IMG/VR virus record: IMGVR_UViG_3300018063_000032
Coordinates: 1-32,947 of that record
From: a virus
Reading direction: 5' to 3' (one strand)
Length of the DNA stretch: 32,947 nucleotides
Positions 4,499-32,218 of this stretch are shown in pieces. Positions within the stretch are counted from its first letter, which is position 1. Every line of letters starts with the position of its first letter. Under the pieces are notes generated by a model. It was not told where the DNA came from, made no database searches, and worked only from the letters and a program-made list of their open reading frames with translations. A program made the position numbers and the translations under genes.

Positions 4499-4758
4499 TA
4501 TGACACCTTCCCTTTACCAGCTATTTTTGCGTTGCTATCGACAATTTTAACTTTCTTCTCTAAAACCCACGTTCCAACCTGTAATGCTAACTTTGCATTT
4601 CCAGGTCGTACAGTATATATTAATCCTGCAACATACTGTGACTGTAATTCGGCAGAAAAGAAATCGTGATACGGAGTAAACAACACGTTAGTTGTGCTAA
4701 CCGGACTAACATAAGGAGTTGTCGAAGACTTAAATAAGTTTTTAATAAACGACAACAT
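4498..4758 (-). CDS. Small hypothetical protein
   Basis: The 86-aa product begins MLSFIKNLFKSS, a short amphipathic basic segment, followed by a soluble strand-rich part (VLFTPYHDFFSAELQSQYVA and LALQVGTWVLEKKVKIVD). AGGAATAATT precedes the ATG. It sits 2 bp after the lectin-like gene and overlaps the decoration-type gene by one base, so it is part of the virion operon. I do not recognise the family. It may be a minor structural or assembly protein. Confidence 0.5.
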   Translation of the reverse strand: MLSFIKNLFKSSTTPYVSPVSTTNVLFTPYHDFFSAELQSQYVAGLIYTVRPGNAKLALQVGTWVLEKKVKIVDSNAKIAGKGKVS

Positions 4759-4760
4759 AA

Positions 4761-5798
4761 TTATTCCTGACTCAAATTATGAGGTTTACGATTTATGCCA
4801 TGCTGTCTTATACGACCTTGACTTCTATATCCTTGTGACCGACCAATATGGATAAGAGCCTGCGGAGTTGTGCCTGCAAGTTGGATATAAGCACCTCGCT
4901 TAACACACACAGGAACATCGGCTAAGTCAATTGGAGGTTCTGCGGCTGTCAAGTTGTGTAACAAGGCTACCACGTTACTTTCATCACTAACGAAAGCACT
5001 GTCTGTATCATAGATTTTTAGTACAAGGTTTACCCCCGCACCTGTAGGTACAAGAGTTACGTTCAGTAATTCAGAATCACCAACACAAATATGTGTACTC
5101 TTTGTCACCCAAAATACATCTGGAAATCTGTCAACTTGCGGAAAGATTCGTAAATCATCGAATATAAACGAGTCAACAAAAATATGACCAACCGTAGTCG
5201 CCAAGGTGTTTTGAGTACCAAGTACACCACGCAGGACTGCTGTATTAGTCAAAGTTGTTACAGCTTGAACAAGAGCACCATCAACATACAAATTGATTGT
5301 GCCAGTACCGCCAGTTTGAATCGTAGATTCCAGTTCTATACAATACCAGCGTCCACGTTCAAGAGGTTGAGGCGCAAAGACAGCAGCAGCGGTTTGACCA
5401 ATCCCTATTTCAACATTGGCAACATTGGTTGTAACACGCAGACTGATTGCATTTTCAACGGCGTCAGCAGTTCCTTGCAGTTCAAATATATTAAAAATAT
5501 CTGTTATACCTTGTAAATCTTTACCTAAGAACAGATAAAAACGAGTCCAACGAGTAACAGTATCCGCAATATCTAAATCACCCTCAATAAGTGTATGGTC
5601 CGCAGTATCGCCTACTAAATCCCACTCAGCTTCAAAGGCACCACGCCACGGAGCAATAGGACCGACATTCTGCACGCCTTGTCTAGCGTTGTGACTATAA
5701 TGACGTACATTAAGCACACCTTCAACATCAGTTTCACTGTCCCATTCAGTTACAACTCCACCTTCAAAATTCGACTCAAATATAAATGGAAATGCCAT
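4761..5798 (-). CDS. ConA/LamG-like lectin-fold virion protein
   Basis: Residues ~1-225 have the layout of a concanavalin A-like jelly roll: an N-terminal SNFEGG segment, paired strands with aromatic residues, LERGRWYCIELESTI (a typical LamG central strand), then INLYVDGALVQAV and IFVDSFIFDDLRIFP. A ~120-residue beta-rich domain follows, with a basic tail. Such proteins bind glycans at the virion or host surface. I chose the second Met (MAFPF, 5798), because AAAGGA lies five bases before it and would be only one base from the first Met at 5804. It is near a glycosyltransferase and a beta-helix gene. Confidence 0.65.
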   Translation of the reverse strand: MAFPFIFESNFEGGVVTEWDSETDVEGVLNVRHYSHNARQGVQNVGPIAPWRGAFEAEWDLVGDTADHTLIEGDLDIADTVTRWTRFYLFLGKDLQGITDIFNIFELQGTADAVENAISLRVTTNVANVEIGIGQTAAAVFAPQPLERGRWYCIELESTIQTGGTGTINLYVDGALVQAVTTLTNTAVLRGVLGTQNTLATTVGHIFVDSFIFDDLRIFPQVDRFPDVFWVTKSTHICVGDSELLNVTLVPTGAGVNLVLKIYDTDSAFVSDESNVVALLHNLTAAEPPIDLADVPVCVKRGAYIQLAGTTPQALIHIGRSQGYRSQGRIRQHGINRKPHNLSQE

Positions 5799-6621: not shown

Positions 6622-7424
6622 ACTTCTTCTCCTGCATCACTAAGGGGTGATGATCCCGCATCCGGTATGGATGAACGTGGGTCTGAATCTGAATTAAAAT
6701 CGTGGTTCTCGTCATTACCATTTTTACGAGTCGCACTATATGGCATAAGAACTAAATCCGTACCTGCTCCACTACCGACGCCAGGTATCCACTGATCGTT
6801 AATCCTTCGTGCAGTAATACGCATTGGCACGTGATGATCGAAAATAACATCTTGATCGACATGCACAGTATAACCTCGTTGCTGCAATTCACGGCAAAAG
6901 GTTAAATCTTCTTGGAGTCTTCCAGGGTCTATCTGCCCACACTTGAACCACGGATATCCGATGCTATCAAGTACATGCTTTTTTACAAGCATCCCTGCTT
7001 GGCCGATGAAATCACCTTTAGGAAGAGGCAGTAAGCCTTGACCTGATATTTCATCCCAATGATACAGTGGCATATTCTCATGCCATTCGCCGTCAATGCC
7101 GTGCATAATGCAAGGGGCATACGGTGGTCCTTTACATGGTGTAATAGGTACAACCACGTCAACATTGTGTTTCAGAAAATGGAGTAACAGTGTAGGTGAA
7201 AACGAGTGATCGTCACCTAAAAACCATGCCCAATCTCCCTGCATTTTCTTTACACCATTGTTGAAGTTCTGAGCAATGTCACAACTTCGTTCAATGTGCA
7301 ACTTGGTGCCAGCAGGAGCACCCAATCCTTCAAGCGACAATTGAAACTCATAATACCGAGGCTGGATACCAGCGGCAACAATAATCGTTCCCGCTGAATA
7401 TCCAGAATCAGATAAAGCAATCAT
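6609..7424 (-). CDS. Glycosyltransferase-like protein (GT-A fold)
   Basis: From Met at 7424 the product is 271 aa. It has the N-terminal half of a GT-A enzyme: a first strand (GTIIVAAG), then RSCDIAQNFNNGVKKMQGDW and WFLGDDHSF at about residues 66-74. The DDH would be the DxD-type metal and nucleotide-sugar site. Later come DVVVPITPCKG, a GQAGMLVKKHVLDSIG acceptor-type segment and a possible catalytic D-L-T. GGAGGGG seven bases upstream fixes this start, and a longer frame to 7592 would run deep into the beta-helix gene. It may glycosylate a virion protein or a host surface polymer. Confidence 0.7.
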   Translation of the reverse strand: MIALSDSGYSAGTIIVAAGIQPRYYEFQLSLEGLGAPAGTKLHIERSCDIAQNFNNGVKKMQGDWAWFLGDDHSFSPTLLLHFLKHNVDVVVPITPCKGPPYAPCIMHGIDGEWHENMPLYHWDEISGQGLLPLPKGDFIGQAGMLVKKHVLDSIGYPWFKCGQIDPGRLQEDLTFCRELQQRGYTVHVDQDVIFDHHVPMRITARRINDQWIPGVGSGAGTDLVLMPYSATRKNGNDENHDFNSDSDPRSSIPDAGSSPLSDAGEEVCKT

Positions 7425-7449
7425 TATTTCCCCTCCAAAATAAGACGAC

Positions 7450-8457
7450 TTAGACGTTACCAAACAACGCGCCAAACGGTGAAGCAACACCAGCCAAATA
7501 GTTCTCAGCGAACGCAATGACGTTGTTTGCAACAGCCGTAGCACCATCTGTACCAGCAGACACATAGTTCCGAAGCATATGCACCGAAGCAATAGTCGTA
7601 GCTGTCACAGAACGTACCGCAGTTGTAATAACCGTTGTTGACGATGTAGGATTGATGAAATCATTATCTCTAATGACGATCCCTAAATGTGCGCCAACGC
7701 TGATTGGCACCAAGTCGATTGCAGCCGCCCACGCTGCTGTTCCTTTTAACTCAAATGTGCTGTTCTCAATTGTAAACCCATGTGCTGTACCAGCAATCAA
7801 GACGCCAGCACCGTTGGCTCCACTTGACGTGTCAAGACCTGACACAAAGTAGCAACCTGAAATTAAAGATTCATCGAGCACGTCGGCTGTGACGTTTGCA
7901 GGGACGTGAATCCCATACGTTGTGACTGAAGCAGTTGCTTGCAATGCAAACGTGCAGTCATGCACGTACACCCTGTTTGCTGTTGCCAAAGTCGGAGTCA
8001 AGCTGATCCCTCGTCCACCAGCAGCCGGAGGCGCAAAATGGATAAACGCAATTTCTGCGTCAGGAGCAGAAACGGTCATACAAATACCAGCAGTTTGTGT
8101 GCTAGTAAGTTGTGTACGAAGACGCTTGCTACCAGAAGCATGTCGAGTAGTAAATGATCGATCTTTACCAGGAATACCCGTAATCGTTAAACCAGCTTTA
8201 TTAATGACGATTGGAGTAGTAACCGAGTGAGAACCAGGAAGCATTACAATCACATCACCAACACTTGCTGTAGCATTTGTGATAGCTTGATTGACTGTTC
8301 GTAATGCACGCTCAGGTGATAACCCATCATTGTTATCACTAGATTCATATGATTGACCTTCAACAGTATAAGTCGCTGCAGGTGCAACCCAAAAATATCT
8401 ACCGCTTGTCTGAGGGATCATCCCCCAAAATGAACCGTACTTTGTAATAAGAGCCAT
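7450..8457 (-). CDS. Right-handed beta-helix (pectate-lyase-like) virion protein
   Basis: The 335-aa product starts MALITKYGSFWGMIPQTSGR, then WVAPAATYTVEG, SSDNNDGLSPERALRTVNQAI and VGDVIVMLPGSHSV. This is the usual opening of phage beta-helix proteins, where a capping helix leads into coils. About residues 80-330 consist of short strand-turn rungs rich in V, I, T, S and N (VYVHDCTF, SLISGCYF, FTIENSTF, IVIRDNDF). The fold is common in tailspikes and head-surface proteins. No clear catalytic acid pair can be named. AAAAGG precedes the start. It lies between the capsid genes and the glycosyltransferase. Confidence 0.7.
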   Translation of the reverse strand: MALITKYGSFWGMIPQTSGRYFWVAPAATYTVEGQSYESSDNNDGLSPERALRTVNQAITNATASVGDVIVMLPGSHSVTTPIVINKAGLTITGIPGKDRSFTTRHASGSKRLRTQLTSTQTAGICMTVSAPDAEIAFIHFAPPAAGGRGISLTPTLATANRVYVHDCTFALQATASVTTYGIHVPANVTADVLDESLISGCYFVSGLDTSSGANGAGVLIAGTAHGFTIENSTFELKGTAAWAAAIDLVPISVGAHLGIVIRDNDFINPTSSTTVITTAVRSVTATTIASVHMLRNYVSAGTDGATAVANNVIAFAENYLAGVASPFGALFGNV

Positions 8458-20960: not shown

Positions 20961-21156
20961 TACGTAGTTACCCTTACCTACTTCCTTTGCTTAGTGCATA
21001 CTACGTAGCGACTAAGTACGTAAGTAATTATGATTAGGTACAACATAACACTACTGAATACTACGTACTCCATTTGCCATTAACCATTCGCCCCTAGTGT
21101 AAAATACTTACGCATGCTTATGTACGTATCGCCCATTAGCTATGGTATACTACGTA
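20961..21156. repeat. Cluster of six TACGTA palindromes
   Basis: TACGTA occurs at 20961, 21002, 21017, 21062, 21123 and 21151. Three of them belong to the longer repeat ATACTACGTA at 20998-21007, 21058-21067 and 21147-21156. Six copies of a 6-bp palindrome in ~200 bp is well above chance and suggests binding sites for a dimeric protein. Confidence 0.7.
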
Positions 21157-21209
21157 ATACAATGTAATACATTTTTGTTAGGGATTACTTTGAGGTGTGA
21201 TGCATAGAA

Positions 21210-21454
21210 CTAGAGTAATACCTAAGTAAGAACCATAATCTATGTTTATCTAAGTAATATCTAACTCTAGATACATATAATATATAACTAGTTACATAGT
21301 CTATGGCTAACTACAAACTAGAGTAATTATAACTAGATTACTATAACTAGAGTAATTATATCTAGAGTAATTATAACTAGTATTACTTGTTTAATAATCT
21401 AGGTTACTGGATTAATATATCTAGAATAAAAATAATCTAGATTAATATAACTAG
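21210..21454. repeat. CTAG-rich iteron-like array
   Basis: CTAG occurs twelve times between 21210 and 21454. At the core, five units start at about 21316, 21331, 21345, 21361 and 21375 with a 14-15 bp period. AACTAGAGTAATTATA is exact in units 1 and 3, and units 2, 4 and 5 are variants. Each complete unit ends in ATTATA, so it also carries TATAAT on the minus strand. Outer copies (21421-21459) read CTAGATTAAT. The spacing suggests cooperative protein binding, as in replication iterons. Confidence 0.7.
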
Positions 21455-21621
21455 ATTAATATACATAGACCTACGGCATATTTCAATAAACTCAAGATAA
21501 CCCTTCACGTGTTTATCTCTCATAATGTAATGTATGCAAACGTAACCTTCGGACCAGAATCATATAACCCATTGATATTGTTAGGCGTTTCATAGACCTG
21601 ACAAGTCTTACTTTTCACATT

Positions 21622-21652
21622 TTGGACAGACAATATTTGTCACAATTATAAT
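21622..21652 (+). promoter_or_regulatory. Upstream rightward promoter candidate
   Basis: A perfect TATAAT (21647-21652) is preceded at 19 bp by TTGGAC (21622-21627), a poor -35 match. It would add a second transcript start about 85 bp before the first early gene. The long spacer keeps this tentative. Confidence 0.35.
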
Positions 21653-21672
21653 GTAGAACTACAAAATAGTTG

Positions 21673-21701
21673 TTGACATCTTACTTACCCTTTGATAAAG
21701 T
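21673..21701 (+). promoter_or_regulatory. Sigma-70-type early promoter
   Basis: TTGACA (21673-21678, perfect -35), a 17-bp spacer and TAAAGT (21696-21701; four of six to TATAAT) lie 45 bp before the first rightward ATG. A tandem ATGACAGAC repeat (21706-21714, 21715-21723) sits at the predicted transcript start, where it could be an operator. This is the strongest promoter-like site in the control region and fits early transcription by the host polymerase. Confidence 0.6.
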
Positions 21702-21745
21702 AACCATGACAGACATGACAGACAACCTAATTAAGGGGCCTGACC

Positions 21746-22195
21746 ATGATTAAATTAGTGGCACAGAAAAGGAATGAATGTTACCTAGCAGTCGTAGCTA
21801 TGCTGTCTGGTAAGACAATAAAACAGATACGATACGAAGCACATATTTTATGTAGATCGTTGGGCTACTTAACCTATGACCAACTATGGCACGCACATAA
21901 TGGAAACTGGTATAAACTTGAAAAAGTTCTATCGACTAGATATCATATTCCATTTTGGGAAGGGTGTAATGGGTCTAGACCTGGGGACAAACCTGATGAA
22001 TGCACTCCTACGTTAGACGGTCGAGGTACAATTGAAATAGTATATATAGGTGGAACTGCACATATCGTAGCCTTTGAGAATGGATATGTGTTCGATAGTA
22101 TTTTTGACAAGCCACTCGCCTATAAACAATGGCTGAAGAAACTGAATACTTTACACCCTATTGACACTGTGAAGGTAAAGAGAATACAATGTTGA
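21746..22195 (+). CDS. Papain/C39-like cysteine peptidase-fold protein
   Basis: The 149-aa product opens AQKRNECYLAVVAMLSGKT, the usual Q/N-x-C-x-x-A-x-x-A-M-L-x-G motif at the N-terminus of C39/papain-like proteins. It later has GGTAHIVAFENGYVFDS. A C12-H106-D117 triad can be proposed. AAGGGG eight bases upstream gives the start. As the first gene after the early promoter it is expected to be made first, and it may act on a host or phage protein. Substrate unknown. Confidence 0.65.
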   Translation: MIKLVAQKRNECYLAVVAMLSGKTIKQIRYEAHILCRSLGYLTYDQLWHAHNGNWYKLEKVLSTRYHIPFWEGCNGSRPGDKPDECTPTLDGRGTIEIVYIGGTAHIVAFENGYVFDSIFDKPLAYKQWLKKLNTLHPIDTVKVKRIQC

Positions 22196-24076: not shown

Positions 24077-24700
24077 ATGCTTACAATACCTCAAGCTGTT
24101 AGAAACATCGCCAAAATAGCGAAGCGATCGACCCCTAATAATTGGGCAACGGGTGTAACATGGTATAGCATTGCTCATACATTTTGTGTCACAGCCTCAG
24201 AAGCGTATGCTATCCCGTTGGATAAAGTTGTCGGAGTCTTAGCACTTCTCTCCCCTCAATGTGCATGGGAAACAAACAAACTAGCAACCCTTGACATGCT
24301 AGAACGGCGAGACACAACCAGACAAGTCTACCCTGACAACATTACAAAAGCACTACGGCTACTTAATGGCGAAACATTTGAACAAATAACAAATCATAGG
24401 CGTTACGGTCACAAGGTCCGTGCATTTTACGATAATATTCTGCTGCTTGATAAGTCTGAGGCTGTTACAGTAGACACCCATGCTACTAGAGCAGCATTCA
24501 ACCTAGTCGATCTGTCAACTAGGCATGTCCGATGGGTGTTTGAATGTGGTGGAAACAAAGTCATAGCAGAAGCGTATAAACAAGTAGCACGCCACTATAA
24601 AATAGCCCCCCATAAACTACAGGCTACAGTCTGGTTGCATGTTAAAGACAGCCTGGAAAGGAATACATCATGTCAAAACTTGACAACTTTACAGCCGTAG
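24077..24700 (+). CDS. HhH-GPD-like (DNA glycosylase-like) protein of unknown function
   Basis: The 207-aa product has VGVLALLSPQCAWETNKLAT (residues 53-72), KVRAFYDNI, then VTVDTHATRAAFNLVDLS (129-146) and IAEAYKQVARHYKIAPHKLQ. The VDTHA-R-x-x-F segment resembles the catalytic-Asp motif (VDTHV-R) of endonuclease III-type HhH-GPD enzymes, and the layout repeats in a phage family of unknown function. No Fe-S Cys cluster is present. A role in base repair or base modification is inference. AAAGGA upstream. It overlaps the next gene by 31 bp. Confidence 0.5.
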   Translation: MLTIPQAVRNIAKIAKRSTPNNWATGVTWYSIAHTFCVTASEAYAIPLDKVVGVLALLSPQCAWETNKLATLDMLERRDTTRQVYPDNITKALRLLNGETFEQITNHRRYGHKVRAFYDNILLLDKSEAVTVDTHATRAAFNLVDLSTRHVRWVFECGGNKVIAEAYKQVARHYKIAPHKLQATVWLHVKDSLERNTSCQNLTTLQP

Positions 24701-26112: not shown

Positions 26113-26297
26113 CAGTTAAAGCAAAATCTTGGGAAGCTATAGCTGTTGACTTGGTTTATAGAGACAAAGATCCTGTGACCGTGGCAGTACTCCCTAGAGA
26201 TTATCCTGATCTGTCAGACTGGATGACAAAGAATATTAAGCATCCAATACCAGGCGAGCATTGTTTTATCTATACCTACGATGTTACACTTCACTGA
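26109..26297 (+). CDS. Small hypothetical protein (62 aa)
   Basis: The start overlaps the previous stop (ATGA). The product reads MTVKAKSWEAIAVDLVYRDK, then DYPDLSDWMTKNIKHPIPGE and a beta end (FIYTYDVTLH). No family recognised. The 10-bp gap after it contains the ribosome site of the sigma-like gene. Confidence 0.5.
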   Translation: MTVKAKSWEAIAVDLVYRDKDPVTVAVLPRDYPDLSDWMTKNIKHPIPGEHCFIYTYDVTLH

Positions 26298-26307
26298 AGG
26301 ACACATT

Positions 26308-27048
26308 ATGCGACGAGACAGATTTATAGAACAATTCGCGGAGCACTTGCCTTACCTTCGAGGTATTATTCAGCAAACTGGCCTAGATCACGATAATACC
26401 AATGACGTACTTAGCAAATGTTCTGAAAGTTTGCTCGATAATAAAAGTTATTTTAAGGTTACACCTAATAAGTTAAAGGCGTTCTTGCGAACAGCTGCAC
26501 GTTTTAATGCGCGGTCATATAAGAAAATTGAAGGGATGCAAAAGCAAGTTATTGCACGATTGACTGATCCTGAATCAACTCCGCGAACAGTTGATCGTGT
26601 CTTTATAAGTACAAAAGTTGATATTGCGCCTGTGCAAGAGAGGGAATGTCCATTTTGTTTTCAAGCTAACCTTAACGAATATGGAGCTTGTGCTATGTGT
26701 CATACGATCGTACCTTCACATATCCGAACACAACGTAACACCATCGTCATGACAGAAGAAAGTTTAGCATGTCAGTTTGATTTTGATATGCCAATTGACG
26801 TACAGAAAGCAGTTGCACGCCTCACGCCTTTTGAACAACGAGTCATTAAAGCTGTTGGCTTAGGCAATGAAAGTCTGGAAAGTTTTGCAGATGATATAAA
26901 TGTTAGCAAGTCAAGTTTAGTACGAACATGGGTGGAAGCTAAAGTAAAACTTCAAGATTATTTGCATGAATATGGCCCACAAAGGCTGTCCAAAAGAGGG
27001 GAAAGGGCCTTTAGGGTGGCTCTGCAACGTATTGAAAAAACACACTAA
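26308..27048 (+). CDS. Sigma-70-like factor with an internal zinc ribbon
   Basis: From Met at 26308 (AAGGA eight bases upstream) the 246-aa product has a region-2-like helix set (DNTNDVLSKCSESLLDNKSY ... LKAFLRTAARFNARSYKK, residues 29-73). A Cys4 ribbon CPFC ... CAMC (C114, C117, C128, C131) follows, and then a region-4 helix-turn-helix (VQKAVARLTPFEQRVIKAVG, LESFADDINVSKSSLVRTWV, residues 165-209). Region order is that of ECF-type sigma factors. It would guide host RNA polymerase to phage promoters, perhaps late ones. It is followed by the primase gene. Confidence 0.65.
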   Translation: MRRDRFIEQFAEHLPYLRGIIQQTGLDHDNTNDVLSKCSESLLDNKSYFKVTPNKLKAFLRTAARFNARSYKKIEGMQKQVIARLTDPESTPRTVDRVFISTKVDIAPVQERECPFCFQANLNEYGACAMCHTIVPSHIRTQRNTIVMTEESLACQFDFDMPIDVQKAVARLTPFEQRVIKAVGLGNESLESFADDINVSKSSLVRTWVEAKVKLQDYLHEYGPQRLSKRGERAFRVALQRIEKTH

Positions 27049-27104
27049 TTCAGGGTTTGGTCCAAAAGTCAGTTTCAGGACATTACCTTATGAGAGGAGT
27101 ATTT

Positions 27105-27776
27105 ATGCAAAGTTATCTGCATGAGCAATATAGAGAACGGGACAAAACTATCCCTGACAATACTGTTTGGCCGTTAATGAGTACTGACGGTCTAGATGAT
27201 ACAGATATGACACGCTATCTACAAGCGCGTGATTTATCATCGCAACTTGCAGAGGATAACAGCTGGTATCCTTCACGCCATGCCAACGATAACTTTTTAC
27301 GAATTGTTATTCCTGCACTCACAACAAAAGAAGGTCATGTTTACTGGCAAGCACGCGCTGTGAGTAGCAATGTTCATCTTCGATATCAATCACCTAAAGG
27401 TCCAAGACACGGCGCATTGATTCGGGTGTTATCATTTCCTGCACATAAGCCGACACGAGAGGTTGTGATAGTTGAAGGCCCGATGGATGCGCTTGCGGCA
27501 GCACAGTGTGGAGCAGACTCCATTGCACTTATGGGAATGGCTCCTGGCGATCAAGCAATAGAACATCTAATTAAGTTAGTTGCAAAGCGGTCTGTCTTGA
27601 TTGTCCTTGACAACGAACCTGAAGCGCAAAGTGCAGCAGGAAAGATTGCAATGGCTTTGGCAAGTGCTGGTAGTAAAGCCCATGTTGATAAACTTCGTTA
27701 TGTAAAAGATCTGGCAGCTATGAATTTTATTACCCGTAGTGCTTGGCTTGATACACACTTGGATGGACTGACATGA
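27105..27776 (+). CDS. Toprim-domain DNA primase
   Basis: The chosen start (27105, AGAGGAG upstream) gives 223 aa. An N-terminal part (residues ~60-110, FLRIVIPALTTKEGHVYWQA) matches the primase region before Toprim. The Toprim core has VVIVEGPMDALAA (E124) and VLIVLDNEPEAQSAA (D169, E171), then KLRYVKDLAAM. No CHC2 zinc finger and no helicase domain are present, so it is a small primase that makes primers for the polymerase coded 460 bp downstream. The next gene starts inside its stop (ATGA). Confidence 0.8.
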   Translation: MQSYLHEQYRERDKTIPDNTVWPLMSTDGLDDTDMTRYLQARDLSSQLAEDNSWYPSRHANDNFLRIVIPALTTKEGHVYWQARAVSSNVHLRYQSPKGPRHGALIRVLSFPAHKPTREVVIVEGPMDALAAAQCGADSIALMGMAPGDQAIEHLIKLVAKRSVLIVLDNEPEAQSAAGKIAMALASAGSKAHVDKLRYVKDLAAMNFITRSAWLDTHLDGLT

Positions 27777-28239: not shown

Positions 28240-30765
28240 ATGGGCAAGCAACTTAAAATTGTCAACACAAAGTTCGGGCTTGTGCCAGAAAGACTGAGTG
28301 AAGCCTCCCATAGCCGTCCAGCATGTGTAGAATGTGCCTTGCATGATGATTGCTCCGAACCATTTATGAAGCCTTACGTACCTAACAACTGGACTGGCAA
28401 GTATTTGTTTGTGACAGAGACAACTAAGGCTGGCGAAGAAGCGTACAGCAGGAATGGACTGCCTATTGGTGAACGTGAGAGGGCGCAGTTAAAAGAAGTA
28501 TTTTTAACGAGTGGTGTCGAACGCAACGACGTGGCGTTCGCCCCTGTCCTTCGCTGTAGGCCCGTCTTGACAGGTTCTAAGAAACCTAAAATGGTCAACC
28601 TTCGGGCCTGTCGTCCATTCCTCATACGCACTATTCAAGAATTGAATCCCTACCTAGTTATAGCGTCGGGTGAAACAGCTGTGAAGTCGATTATGAATAC
28701 TGGTGCACCAGGACCACAAGCCTTGTTAAGGGGTCGAGCAATTGGGATGCCGGTTGCTGGAAAAGATTTATTCATGCGCGTAGCTGTTACAAGTAAGCAC
28801 TCTGCGCTTTTAACTGATCCTCACGCTAAGAAACGAATGATAGAAGATCTTCAACGGTTAGGGATGCCTGAGTTAAAGCATCCAATTTCTGCATTGCCCA
28901 AATGGATGCCAAAGCAAGAATTAGGATTTGATACGGAATATGGCTCTCCGATCGTAGGAGAAAAGGGCGCAACAGGCGTCTACACGCTTGGTATCGCTGA
29001 CGAGCACCATGCGATAGCAGTTCAACCCAAGGCGGTTGCAAGTCTGACAGCATTGCTAAAGGATGCTGTGATCGTCGGACATAACATAACTGTAGACATA
29101 GAAGCACTGTTGCGTCTCCAACCACGAGGGCTAAAGACTGCCTTAGAGCAATGGTTACAAGGCAGACGCCAGCGCGATACATTACTTGAATCAAAATTGG
29201 CAGACGAAAATAGAGGTAAATATGGTTACAAACTTGAGTCGCTTGCAGTTAGTTTGTTCAACACAAAGGACTGGAAAAAAGCTACTGAAGACCTTGGCCC
29301 TGATTCCTCTAAGTGGCCCCCTCACCTTAGAAACGAACGATGTAGGCTGGATGCATGGGCTACTTTACAAATTCATAAGAAATTGCAAACAAGTCTGGAA
29401 GGACCAACACGGCTCTCGCATGCCATTGCAATGAGTCTTCGGAGAATGTATTGGGCCGGGGTTTATATTGACGGTAAAAAGTTTGCAAAGATGCGTACAA
29501 AAGTTTACAAAGATAGGACAGTAGGGTTTACTGATTTGTTAAAGTATGTTGACAAGTTTGGGATGAATGTTTCTGAGTTTACTGCGAAAGACGCTCAACT
29601 AAGAGAATACGTCTACGGCAGTAACGGGGTAGGGCTGGAAATCGAGTCATATACTAAAGGCGGTTTGCCTAGCGTTTCAGTGAAACACCTGAAGGAATAT
29701 AAAGATGATAAAGCGATTCAAGCCCTTATCACGTTCTCGAAAGCCGACAAACTCCAAAGTACGTACTGCGACTCTCTTGCAAAAAGGTTTGTTAAGTTGG
29801 CAGACGGTTTGTGGATGCCTGTCCCTATCAACCCTCTCGCCGCAAAGACTGGTAGAAGGGCTAGTGCGTCTCCAAACTTCCAAAACTGGCCTGTATCGGT
29901 ACGGCAAATCATTGTCAGTCGCTTTAAGGGCGGAAGCATTGCAGACAATGACTATTCAAAGCTGGAGCCGATTCTTGGAGGGTGGGTATCTGGTGAACCA
30001 AAACTTACCGATTATTTTGTCAAGTATCCAAACGGATATATCAAAATTGGAGAAGATTTTTTCAAGAAGAGTGTTACTAAAGGTACTAAGGAATATACAT
30101 CAGTAAAGTCTCTTGTGCTTGGAATTACATACAACAAAAAGAAGTGGTCATTAGCCGAGGATTTGTGGAGTCAAGGTGTACGTTTGGATAGCAACTATGA
30201 ACGACACGTAGAAAAGTGTGGTGAGTTGCTAGAAGAGTTTCTTGATATGTTTCCTGGTATGCGTGACTATCATGCAGAACAAGAAGCGAACGTATTAAGA
30301 AATGGGCATGTATATAATGCTCTTGGTCAATGTCGTCGTTTACCATTGCCGGAGGAACCTCCGCGAGGCGAGAAAGGATTATATCGAGCATGGATGAGGT
30401 ACAAAGCACATGTGATCAACCAAGCAATCAACTACCCGATTCAGTCGCTCGCGGCTTACGTGACTGGTTGCTCCCTTATAGACTTAGAGAGGGAATTTCT
30501 TACTCATTGGAAGTGGTCATACGTAGATTACCAGACAGCCTTAATGGAGAAGAAGTGGCCGCACATGCCTTTGCTTGCTATCGAAGTACACGACGACCTA
30601 ATGCAAGATATACCGAAGGGGATGGAGAAAATAACCAGGGAGATTACCCATGAAACCATGAACAAACCACCAAGTTTATTTGCTGTCTTGCCGGAACTGT
30701 GGGATTCAAATGTCAAGTTAACCGTGGATACAAACACTGGACCTTGTTGGGGGTTGAAGTCATGA
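28240..30765 (+). CDS. DNA polymerase A with N-terminal UDG-like domain
   Basis: The 841-aa fusion has three parts. Residues ~25-210 are a family-4/5-like uracil-DNA glycosylase with Cys ligands C29, C32, C106 and C124 and a HSALLTDPHAKK motif; the GEAPG motif is replaced by TETTK. Residues ~225-385 are a 3'-5' exonuclease (D231/E233, N282/D286, D371). Residues ~395-841 are polymerase A: motif A DYSKLEP (D571), motif B K623-x3-L627-G-x-x-Y631, motif C VHDDL (D785/D786). It replicates the phage genome. There is no 5'-nuclease. The start follows AGGGGC. Confidence 0.9.
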   Translation: MGKQLKIVNTKFGLVPERLSEASHSRPACVECALHDDCSEPFMKPYVPNNWTGKYLFVTETTKAGEEAYSRNGLPIGERERAQLKEVFLTSGVERNDVAFAPVLRCRPVLTGSKKPKMVNLRACRPFLIRTIQELNPYLVIASGETAVKSIMNTGAPGPQALLRGRAIGMPVAGKDLFMRVAVTSKHSALLTDPHAKKRMIEDLQRLGMPELKHPISALPKWMPKQELGFDTEYGSPIVGEKGATGVYTLGIADEHHAIAVQPKAVASLTALLKDAVIVGHNITVDIEALLRLQPRGLKTALEQWLQGRRQRDTLLESKLADENRGKYGYKLESLAVSLFNTKDWKKATEDLGPDSSKWPPHLRNERCRLDAWATLQIHKKLQTSLEGPTRLSHAIAMSLRRMYWAGVYIDGKKFAKMRTKVYKDRTVGFTDLLKYVDKFGMNVSEFTAKDAQLREYVYGSNGVGLEIESYTKGGLPSVSVKHLKEYKDDKAIQALITFSKADKLQSTYCDSLAKRFVKLADGLWMPVPINPLAAKTGRRASASPNFQNWPVSVRQIIVSRFKGGSIADNDYSKLEPILGGWVSGEPKLTDYFVKYPNGYIKIGEDFFKKSVTKGTKEYTSVKSLVLGITYNKKKWSLAEDLWSQGVRLDSNYERHVEKCGELLEEFLDMFPGMRDYHAEQEANVLRNGHVYNALGQCRRLPLPEEPPRGEKGLYRAWMRYKAHVINQAINYPIQSLAAYVTGCSLIDLEREFLTHWKWSYVDYQTALMEKKWPHMPLLAIEVHDDLMQDIPKGMEKITREITHETMNKPPSLFAVLPELWDSNVKLTVDTNTGPCWGLKS

Positions 30766-31327: not shown

Positions 31328-31423
31328 ATGACTGAAGATATTGCAGAACTAATAACATTTTTTGTAGCTTGTGCCCCAATTGTTATTCTAGTAGCACTTG
31401 TTATTTGGCAATTTATTCACTAG
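31328..31423 (+). CDS. 31-aa single-span membrane peptide
   Basis: The frame reads MTEDIAELITFFVACAPIVI, then LVALVIWQFIH, with one membrane helix (about residues 9-30) after an acidic N-terminus. It lies directly between two early genes, 2 bp after a stop. The ribosome site is weak (GGGTG). It may be a small membrane regulator. Chance origin is possible. Confidence 0.45.
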   Translation: MTEDIAELITFFVACAPIVILVALVIWQFIH

Positions 31424-31431
31424 GAGAAATT

Positions 31432-31680
31432 ATGAAAGCATCGTTAGACGTTATTATCCCTACTCCGCCCCCAAATGAAATTGTTCTGCGGTTAACTGAA
31501 CGGGAAGCCGCTTTGTTTTTTCAATTAGGAAATTGGAACAGCAGAGTTGCGACAGACTTTGCAGCGCATTCTGACGTATTAACATCAGACGTAAAAGGTC
31601 TGTTAGAAACCTTATATTATGCTTTGAGTCCTCTTGACTTTAACAAAAATATAAACAGTAATGGACACTGGATTCAGTAG
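31432..31680 (+). CDS. Hypothetical early protein (82 aa)
   Basis: The start MKASLDVIIPTPPPNEIVLR at 31432 is fixed by TAGGAG seven bases upstream. A longer frame to 31369 would overlap the membrane peptide. The product has LTEREAALFFQLGNWNSRVA and a C-terminal LLETLYYALSPLDFNKNINS segment, an alpha/beta mini-protein. No family recognised. Confidence 0.55.
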   Translation: MKASLDVIIPTPPPNEIVLRLTEREAALFFQLGNWNSRVATDFAAHSDVLTSDVKGLLETLYYALSPLDFNKNINSNGHWIQ

Positions 31681-31744
31681 TTAATGTATGAGTGAAATGG
31701 TAGATCTGGATTATTATTAATATAACGAAGAGGAGTATTTTGAA

Positions 31745-32218
31745 ATGGCAAGACGTGGCAATCGTGACAATGATGGGAAGTATCTTCGGTTGACGGGCTT
31801 GTGGCCTTCTAAGAAAAATAATGCCCTCTGGAGCGGCAAGATTCGCAATCAAGACATTGGTGTGCTTCAGGACAAGATTCAAGAAGCCGACGATTCTAAT
31901 TCTGATATTGTAGTCTTTCTGTGGGAGAACACTGATCGTCGGGGTAAGAAAGACCCTGAGTTTACGGTGCAAATAAGTGTCTCTGAGGATGAAGAAAATG
32001 GGCATGGTCGCGGTCGGTCAAGTGGTGGTCACTCAAGCCGTCGTGATCGTGATGAAGTGAAGGATGAGGAGAACGACGATAACAACGAGGAAGATAATGA
32101 GGAACCAGAAGAGAAAGAAACTCGTCGTAGTACTAGAGGAGCTAAAGCAAAAGGTAAAGAAGAGTCACGCAGCAGACGCAGCGGTGCAAGTTCCAAGAAA
32201 GACAAGAACGATTGGTAA
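31745..32218 (+). CDS. Beta-domain protein with charged tail, possibly ssDNA-binding
   Basis: Residues 1-80 of 157 form a small beta domain (KYLRLTGLWPSKKNNALWSG, DIVVFLWENTDRRGKKDPEF, TVQISVSEDE). The rest is a long Arg/Ser/Glu/Asp-rich disordered tail ending KDKNDW. The layout is like that of some phage single-strand-binding or accessory replication proteins, with an acidic disordered tail. I cannot assign a family. GAGGAGTATTTTGAA lies upstream. Confidence 0.5.
   Translation: MARRGNRDNDGKYLRLTGLWPSKKNNALWSGKIRNQDIGVLQDKIQEADDSNSDIVVFLWENTDRRGKKDPEFTVQISVSEDEENGHGRGRSSGGHSSRRDRDEVKDEENDDNNEEDNEEPEEKETRRSTRGAKAKGKEESRSRRSGASSKKDKNDW

Follow-up and report, generated by a model that had tools for sequence, protein, structure and literature searches.

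A phage family A DNA polymerase with a degenerate uracil-DNA glycosylase-like domain, conserved iron-sulfur ligands, and an altered nucleotide pocket

The window is the whole 32,947-nt stretch of viral DNA analysed here (IMGVR_UViG_3300018063_000032), and the feature under study is the open reading frame (ORF) at 28240-30765. The phage that encodes this fusion polymerase is known from metagenomes only. AGGGGC lies a short way 5' of the ATG. The ORF joins a uracil-DNA glycosylase (UDG)-like domain, a 3'-5' exonuclease, and a family A DNA polymerase (PolA), and lies downstream of a primase gene:

27057..27776, + strand: Toprim primase gene (phrog_47 DNA primase), upstream of the polymerase and kept in relatives
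28240..30765, + strand: UDG-like / 3'-5' exonuclease / family A DNA polymerase fusion, 841 aa (Pfam, PHROGs, MAFFT alignment, AlphaFold2)
28312..28860, + strand: UDG-like domain with a degenerate active site, residues about 25-207 (Pfam UDG, E 2e-11; TIGR00758 below cut-off)
28921..29403, + strand: 3'-5' exonuclease domain, residues 228-388 (alignment)
29404..30753, + strand: family A polymerase domain, residues 389-838 (Pfam, alignment, structure match)

Three Pfam families match the protein, all over their curated cut-offs. These are UDG (PF03167) on residues 65-204 (44.5 bits, cut-off 24.3), DNA_pol_A_exo1 (PF01612) on residues 259-387 (27.5 bits, cut-off 23.6), and DNA_pol_A (PF00476) on residues 452-838 (111.8 bits, cut-off 34.3). 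The original prediction of an Fe-S UDG-like domain ahead of a proofreading PolA is borne out. PHROGs assigns residues 111-838 to DNA polymerase phrog_17. The protein falls under the equivalog cut-offs for cellular DNA polymerase I (NF004397, 98.5 versus 720 bits; TIGR00593, 69.7 versus 600 bits). The order UDG-exonuclease-PolA is already known from SPO1, and the window protein and its relatives are a divergent variant of it.

The AlphaFold2 model, built with 23 homologues, has a mean pLDDT of 86.9 and a pTM of 0.85; with an input of three sequences, the pLDDT was 33.5. The model matches the Bst and Klenow fragment structures and also viral DNA polymerases of similar size, and the best 50 Foldseek matches are polymerases only. 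In the UDG region, four predicted beta strands (55-59, 98-102, 139-143, and 178-184) fit the UDG fold.

No close relative of the protein was found in the phage collection, where the best matches are below 26% identity. Only three relatives were found, all in IMG/VR: L002/L005 on an 11.8-kb contig, L004 on a 51.7-kb contig (G001), and L116 on a 40.4-kb contig (G004). L116 came from a search with the motif A pattern NDYSKLEPI, which turned up in only three other contigs of IMG/VR. The window protein and these three make up the window family. Identity to the window protein is 54-56% for L002 and L004. The UDG domain is the fastest to diverge within the family, at 36-50% identity versus 65-79% for the polymerase.

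The 51.7-kb relative and the window have a common gene order across the structural and replication modules, and both encode an SU10-like portal and adaptor. The relative appears complete or nearly so, because its ends fall between two capsid-region genes that adjoin in the window. Its replicative helicase is a DnaB-like ring helicase, not UvrD or RecB. The best explanation is that the fusion is the replicative DNA polymerase of the window phage, which would be a tailed phage whose portal is of the SU10 type.

Several neighbouring genes are worth recording. A conserved protein is encoded upstream of the primase (window 26281-27048, L116 contig 7188-7838, G001 31413-32126). By eye, it shows a zinc-ribbon-like CxxC...CxxC insert and, at its C-terminus, a helix-turn-helix resembling sigma region 4; neither Pfam nor PHROG has a match for it. 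In phage Dp-1, a gene at a comparable position is annotated as a sigma factor. The window ORF at 24077-24700 encodes a DUF7178 / phrog_3842 protein, also present in G004 and missing in G001, in which a VDTHATR stretch resembles HhH-type DNA glycosylases by eye. A conserved small protein (KYLRLTGLWPSK), whose long tail is rich in acidic residues and arginine, is encoded at 31745-32218 and, in the L002 contig, at 4738-5205; it is possibly a single-strand binding protein, and no family matches it. G001 encodes a nucleoside deoxyribosyltransferase and a dATP/dGTP diphosphohydrolase-like protein at 21055-22130, both belonging to the nucleotide-modification toolbox, and no adenylosuccinate-synthetase-type (PurZ) family is among those listed for it.

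The polymerase domain carries four segments in which residues of E. coli Pol I are replaced:

29950..29973, + strand: motif A, DYSKLEPI; Asp705 and Glu710 kept, Gln708 replaced by Lys574 and Arg712 by Ile578 (alignment)
30037..30039, + strand: Tyr600 replacing His734 (alignment)
30094..30132, + strand: O-helix, YTSVKSLVLGITY; Arg754 replaced by Tyr619 and Phe762 by Leu627, Lys758 (Lys623) and Tyr766 kept (alignment)
30589..30597, + strand: motif C, His784-Asp785-Asp786 (alignment)

Residue numbers come from aligning the protein to E. coli Pol I and T7 with MAFFT, and they stay the same in larger full-length alignments. Leu627 aligns with position 762, Tyr619 with 754, Lys623 with 758, and His784-Asp785-Asp786 with 881-883. 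The placement of Leu627 is independent of gap placement, because the spacing K758-x3-762-x3-Y766 (KSLVLGITY) is fixed. The proposal of Leu at the Phe762 site thus holds in the full alignment, which puts neither Phe nor Tyr there. Tyr619 at the Arg754 site is confirmed as well, with Tyr in all four family members; outside the family, position 754 is Arg in 86 of 87 aligned sequences and a gap in the other. For motif C, the identity HDD was read correctly, but its description as an altered or unusual motif does not stand. Most related phage enzymes compared have HDA or HDS, so that HDD is ordinary and was rejected as a distinctive change.

All four members share Q708K, R712I, H734Y, R754Y, F762L, E883D, and Y497R in the exonuclease. 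The polymerase substitutions are beyond chance, as three further contigs share every one. K708, I712, and Y754 are confined to the window family within a 91-sequence set. D705, the steric gate E710, R668, K758, Y766, N845, Q849, H881, and D882 are kept in all four. The exonuclease acids D355, E357, D424, and D501 (Asp231, Glu233, Asp286, and Asp371) are likewise kept throughout, and Tyr497 of ExoIII is replaced by Arg (Arg367 in the window protein). In Klentaq, positions 708, 734, 754, and 758 contact the triphosphate of the dNTP; by that model, three of these four contacts would be altered jointly here. With the core residues of the polymerase and proofreading sites intact, the enzyme is probably active, and the nucleotide pocket appears to be rebuilt but working.

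Leu762 is accompanied by an aromatic residue nearby. In 82 Phe762 polymerases, which fall into 44 clusters at the 60% identity level, positions 733-734 are an aliphatic residue or Pro followed by His. An aromatic is always found at 733/734 in the 152 readable Leu762 sequences (36 clusters), either as Tyr734 or, in one clade, as Phe733-His734. A strict Tyr734-Leu762 coupling was perfect in 91 sequences and was rejected when the larger sample broke it; the exception clade comprises 17 sequences with His734 and Leu762, all having Phe733. For the four window-family members, the 733/734 register was assigned manually, following the full-length alignment. A domain-only alignment shifts the family near 734 and 754 and was disregarded at both positions. 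The statistics linking 733/734 to 762 are weak, because Leu762 has few origins (a single Leu762 clade is not rejected, p-AU 0.175, and there are only two independent pairs). With Leu at the 762 site, T7 PolA retains almost no activity, and the authors of that work posit compensatory changes, as yet unidentified, in Leu762 enzymes found in nature (PMC13228545). A concrete candidate for this compensation is the aromatic at 733/734.

The UDG-like domain keeps its cysteines and has lost residues of the excision site:

28324..28335, + strand: Fe-S ligands Cys29 and Cys32 (Tth UDGa Cys13 and Cys16), invariant in four of four members
28414..28428, + strand: TETTK (59-63) at the site of the UDG motif GEAPG (alignment)
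28543..28545, + strand: Pro102 at the uracil-recognition residue Asn80 (Tth numbering), Pro in four of four members
28555..28557, + strand: Fe-S ligand Cys106 (Tth Cys84; alignment)
28609..28611, + strand: Fe-S ligand Cys124 (Tth Cys100; alignment)
28795..28797, + strand: Lys186 at the catalytic His155 (HPxxL to KHSALL), Ser in the three relatives (alignment)

The references for this alignment were Tth UDGa, TM0511, and S. tokodaii UDG. The four cysteines, Cys29, 32, 106, and 124, are present in every member, as are C38, R71, G73, R105, RGR of 164-166, and others. The predicted change of GEAPG to TETTK is upheld by the alignment with family-4 UDGs, and the site differs in each member (TETTK in the window, GDNST, GETSV, and VEVSS). 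The His155 site is K/S/S/S, and the base-stacking Phe54 site is I/F/Y in the three members aligned. The Glu41 equivalent (Glu60) is kept in the window protein and L004. The family-4 model TIGR00758 scores 51.1-54.9 bits versus a cut-off of 125.3, so the domain is a UDG superfamily member that the curated model does not count as a family-4 UDG.

Substitution H155S in Tth UDGa reduces k2 more than a thousandfold, and N80A reduces k2/Km by a factor of over 40 (PMC5387724). Since Asn80 is Pro and the catalytic His155 is Lys or Ser across the family, uracil excision is very probably gone, as had been suspected. UdgX-type covalent trapping was considered and rejected, because the His loop is absent: the window protein has TETTK rather than GEQPG, no His within 107-118 (the KRRIH loop), and a TIGR03914 score of 18.8 versus 190 bits.

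His155 is also lost from other UDG-PolA fusions that retain the cysteines. UDG-exonuclease-PolA fusions were gathered from phage records and IMG/VR, and 31 were aligned, three of them from the window family; the alignment of the remote fusions L059, L064, L067, and L068 is unsure. The five-residue active-site set is complete in 5/31 (ctfzr933, L063, L057, L045, and L051). His155 is missing in 21 of the 31, of which 13 keep all four Fe-S cysteines (14 of 22 when L116 is added). On the polymerase tree, supported branches give a minimum of three changes in the His155 state, and the best tree has five. This recurrent loss with the cysteines kept suggests a DNA-binding or structural role, and it argues that selection in many fusions maintains something other than excision. 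Phe762, Arg754, Gln708, and Arg712 are found in every fusion outside the window family, and in this sample a UDG domain and Leu762 are combined only within it. A literature search found no paper on UDG domains fused to phage PolA or explaining the UDG part.

On balance, the joint reading that we consider probable is that of an active replicative PolA with an excision-dead, UDG-derived Fe-S contacting module and a compensated dNTP pocket. The N-terminal domain would descend from a family-4 uracil-DNA glycosylase, retaining the [4Fe-4S] scaffold and the UDG fold while having lost uracil excision. Within the replication complex, it would most likely act as a module that is stabilised by Fe-S and contacts DNA or protein. 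Such a role has a precedent in vaccinia D4/A20, in which the UDG D4 works within the polymerase processivity factor (PMC3946371). The co-inherited pocket set K708, I712, Y734, Y754, and L762 would relocate charge and aromatic groups near the incoming nucleotide and probably compensates for the lost Phe762 and Arg754.

An unlikely but credible alternative is that the UDG domain is a decaying relic without a function of its own. Its place as the fastest-diverging domain fits such a slow loss, as do the different motif 1 in each member and the repeated loss of His155 among fusions. Against this reading, the four Fe-S cysteines, C38, R71, G73, R105, RGR 164-166, and others are invariant at 36-50% identity, the fold is predicted confidently, and the domain is present in every member.

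Quite unlikely is a base sensor, in which uracil or a modified base particular to the phage would be flipped out and recognised by the domain in advance of the polymerase, with no cut made. Uracil recognition by archaeal family B polymerases provides a model, and SPO1 DNA contains hydroxymethyluracil. The UDG fold does precede the polymerase here, and it is kept though the excision residues are gone. A thymidylate-synthase-like gene, divergent and perhaps encoding a pyrimidine hydroxymethylase, is present in 16 of the 21 UDG-PolA contigs outside the window family (those behind L040-L068). That gene is absent from the three window-family contigs searched (the window and the 51.7-kb and 40-kb relatives), so an SPO1-like thymidine-modification setting does not appear to reach the family. 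Asn80, the reader of uracil N3/O4, is Pro throughout the family, Phe54 is not conserved, and the UdgX His loop is missing. Specific uracil sensing, which had been raised as a possibility, is thus weakened and seems unlikely, and modified-base recognition has gained no positive support. We regard as very unlikely a version in which the former glycosylase is an Fe-S DNA-reading module for a non-standard base and the pocket (K708, Y734, Y754, and L762) is rebuilt for the matching modified nucleotide.

Continued excision of uracil or a related base through other residues (His187, Glu60) is likewise very unlikely. His187 adjoins the His155 position, Glu60 is the Glu41 equivalent kept in two members, and UDG families 2 and 6 manage without the motif 2 His (PMC5387724), but His187 is Ile or Leu in the relatives, and N80 has been lost together with the motif 1 PG.

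The idea that Leu762 signals a temperate phage whose polymerase is slow is highly improbable: surveys do associate Leu762 mainly with temperate phages (PMC6302109, PMC9069017, PMC13228545), but no tyrosine or serine recombinase (integrase PF00589, resolvase PF00239) was found in the window and its three relatives by searches positive in 14/14 and 11/14 control genomes, and the apparently complete 51.7-kb relative shows no lysogeny gene among its listed Pfam families and has a helicase of the ring type tied to lytic phages (Nasko 2018). The original link from Leu762 to temperate replication is therefore not supported. The absence of a recombinase is weak evidence in the window and two relatives, because those contigs are fragments. 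An exact-peptide scan of 84,980 genomes, a weak test, found no relative and no prophage with this polymerase.

The window family can be compared with several named systems. The SPO1-type fusions of Herelleviridae (SPO1L1, Goe16, and LysYB1) have the same UDG-exonuclease-PolA order and also a changed motif 1 (QENPF, ADNPT). SPO1L1 keeps His155 and has lost the Fe-S cysteines, the opposite of the window protein. Its pocket is R754, H734, F762, and Q708, where the window protein has Y754, Y734, L762, and K708.

The Serbin / ctfzr933-type fusions and L040-L068 resemble the window protein in their Fe-S cysteines, domain order, and recurrent loss of His155 or Asn80; Serbin, like the window family, has Pro at Asn80. 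They differ in having Phe762, Arg754, Gln708, Arg712, and Tyr497 throughout, and five have an intact UDG site. In the polymerase tree, the window family is a long branch separate from them. A solved structure of the architecture may exist, because the N-terminus of PDB 9qhs_A, a putative DNA-directed DNA polymerase I of 1142 aa, matches the UDG domains of phage UDG-PolA. The match is through ctfzr933 and LysYB1 only, not through the window protein, and a literature search did not find a paper on 9qhs.

Family-4 UDGs (Tth UDGa 1ui0, TM0511 1vk2, and S. tokodaii 4zbx) have the superfamily fold and four Fe-S cysteines in common with the window domain, which has lost their GEAPG, Asn80, Asn89, and His155. 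The Leu762 viral PolA clades (Schmidt 2014, Nasko 2018, Keown 2022), Streptococcus phage Dp-1, and Listeria LP-010 combine Leu762 with Tyr734 as the window protein does. Those clades keep Arg754 and mostly Gln708 and Arg712, which the window family does not, and no UDG domain turned up in the IMG/VR members checked from the other Leu762 clades.
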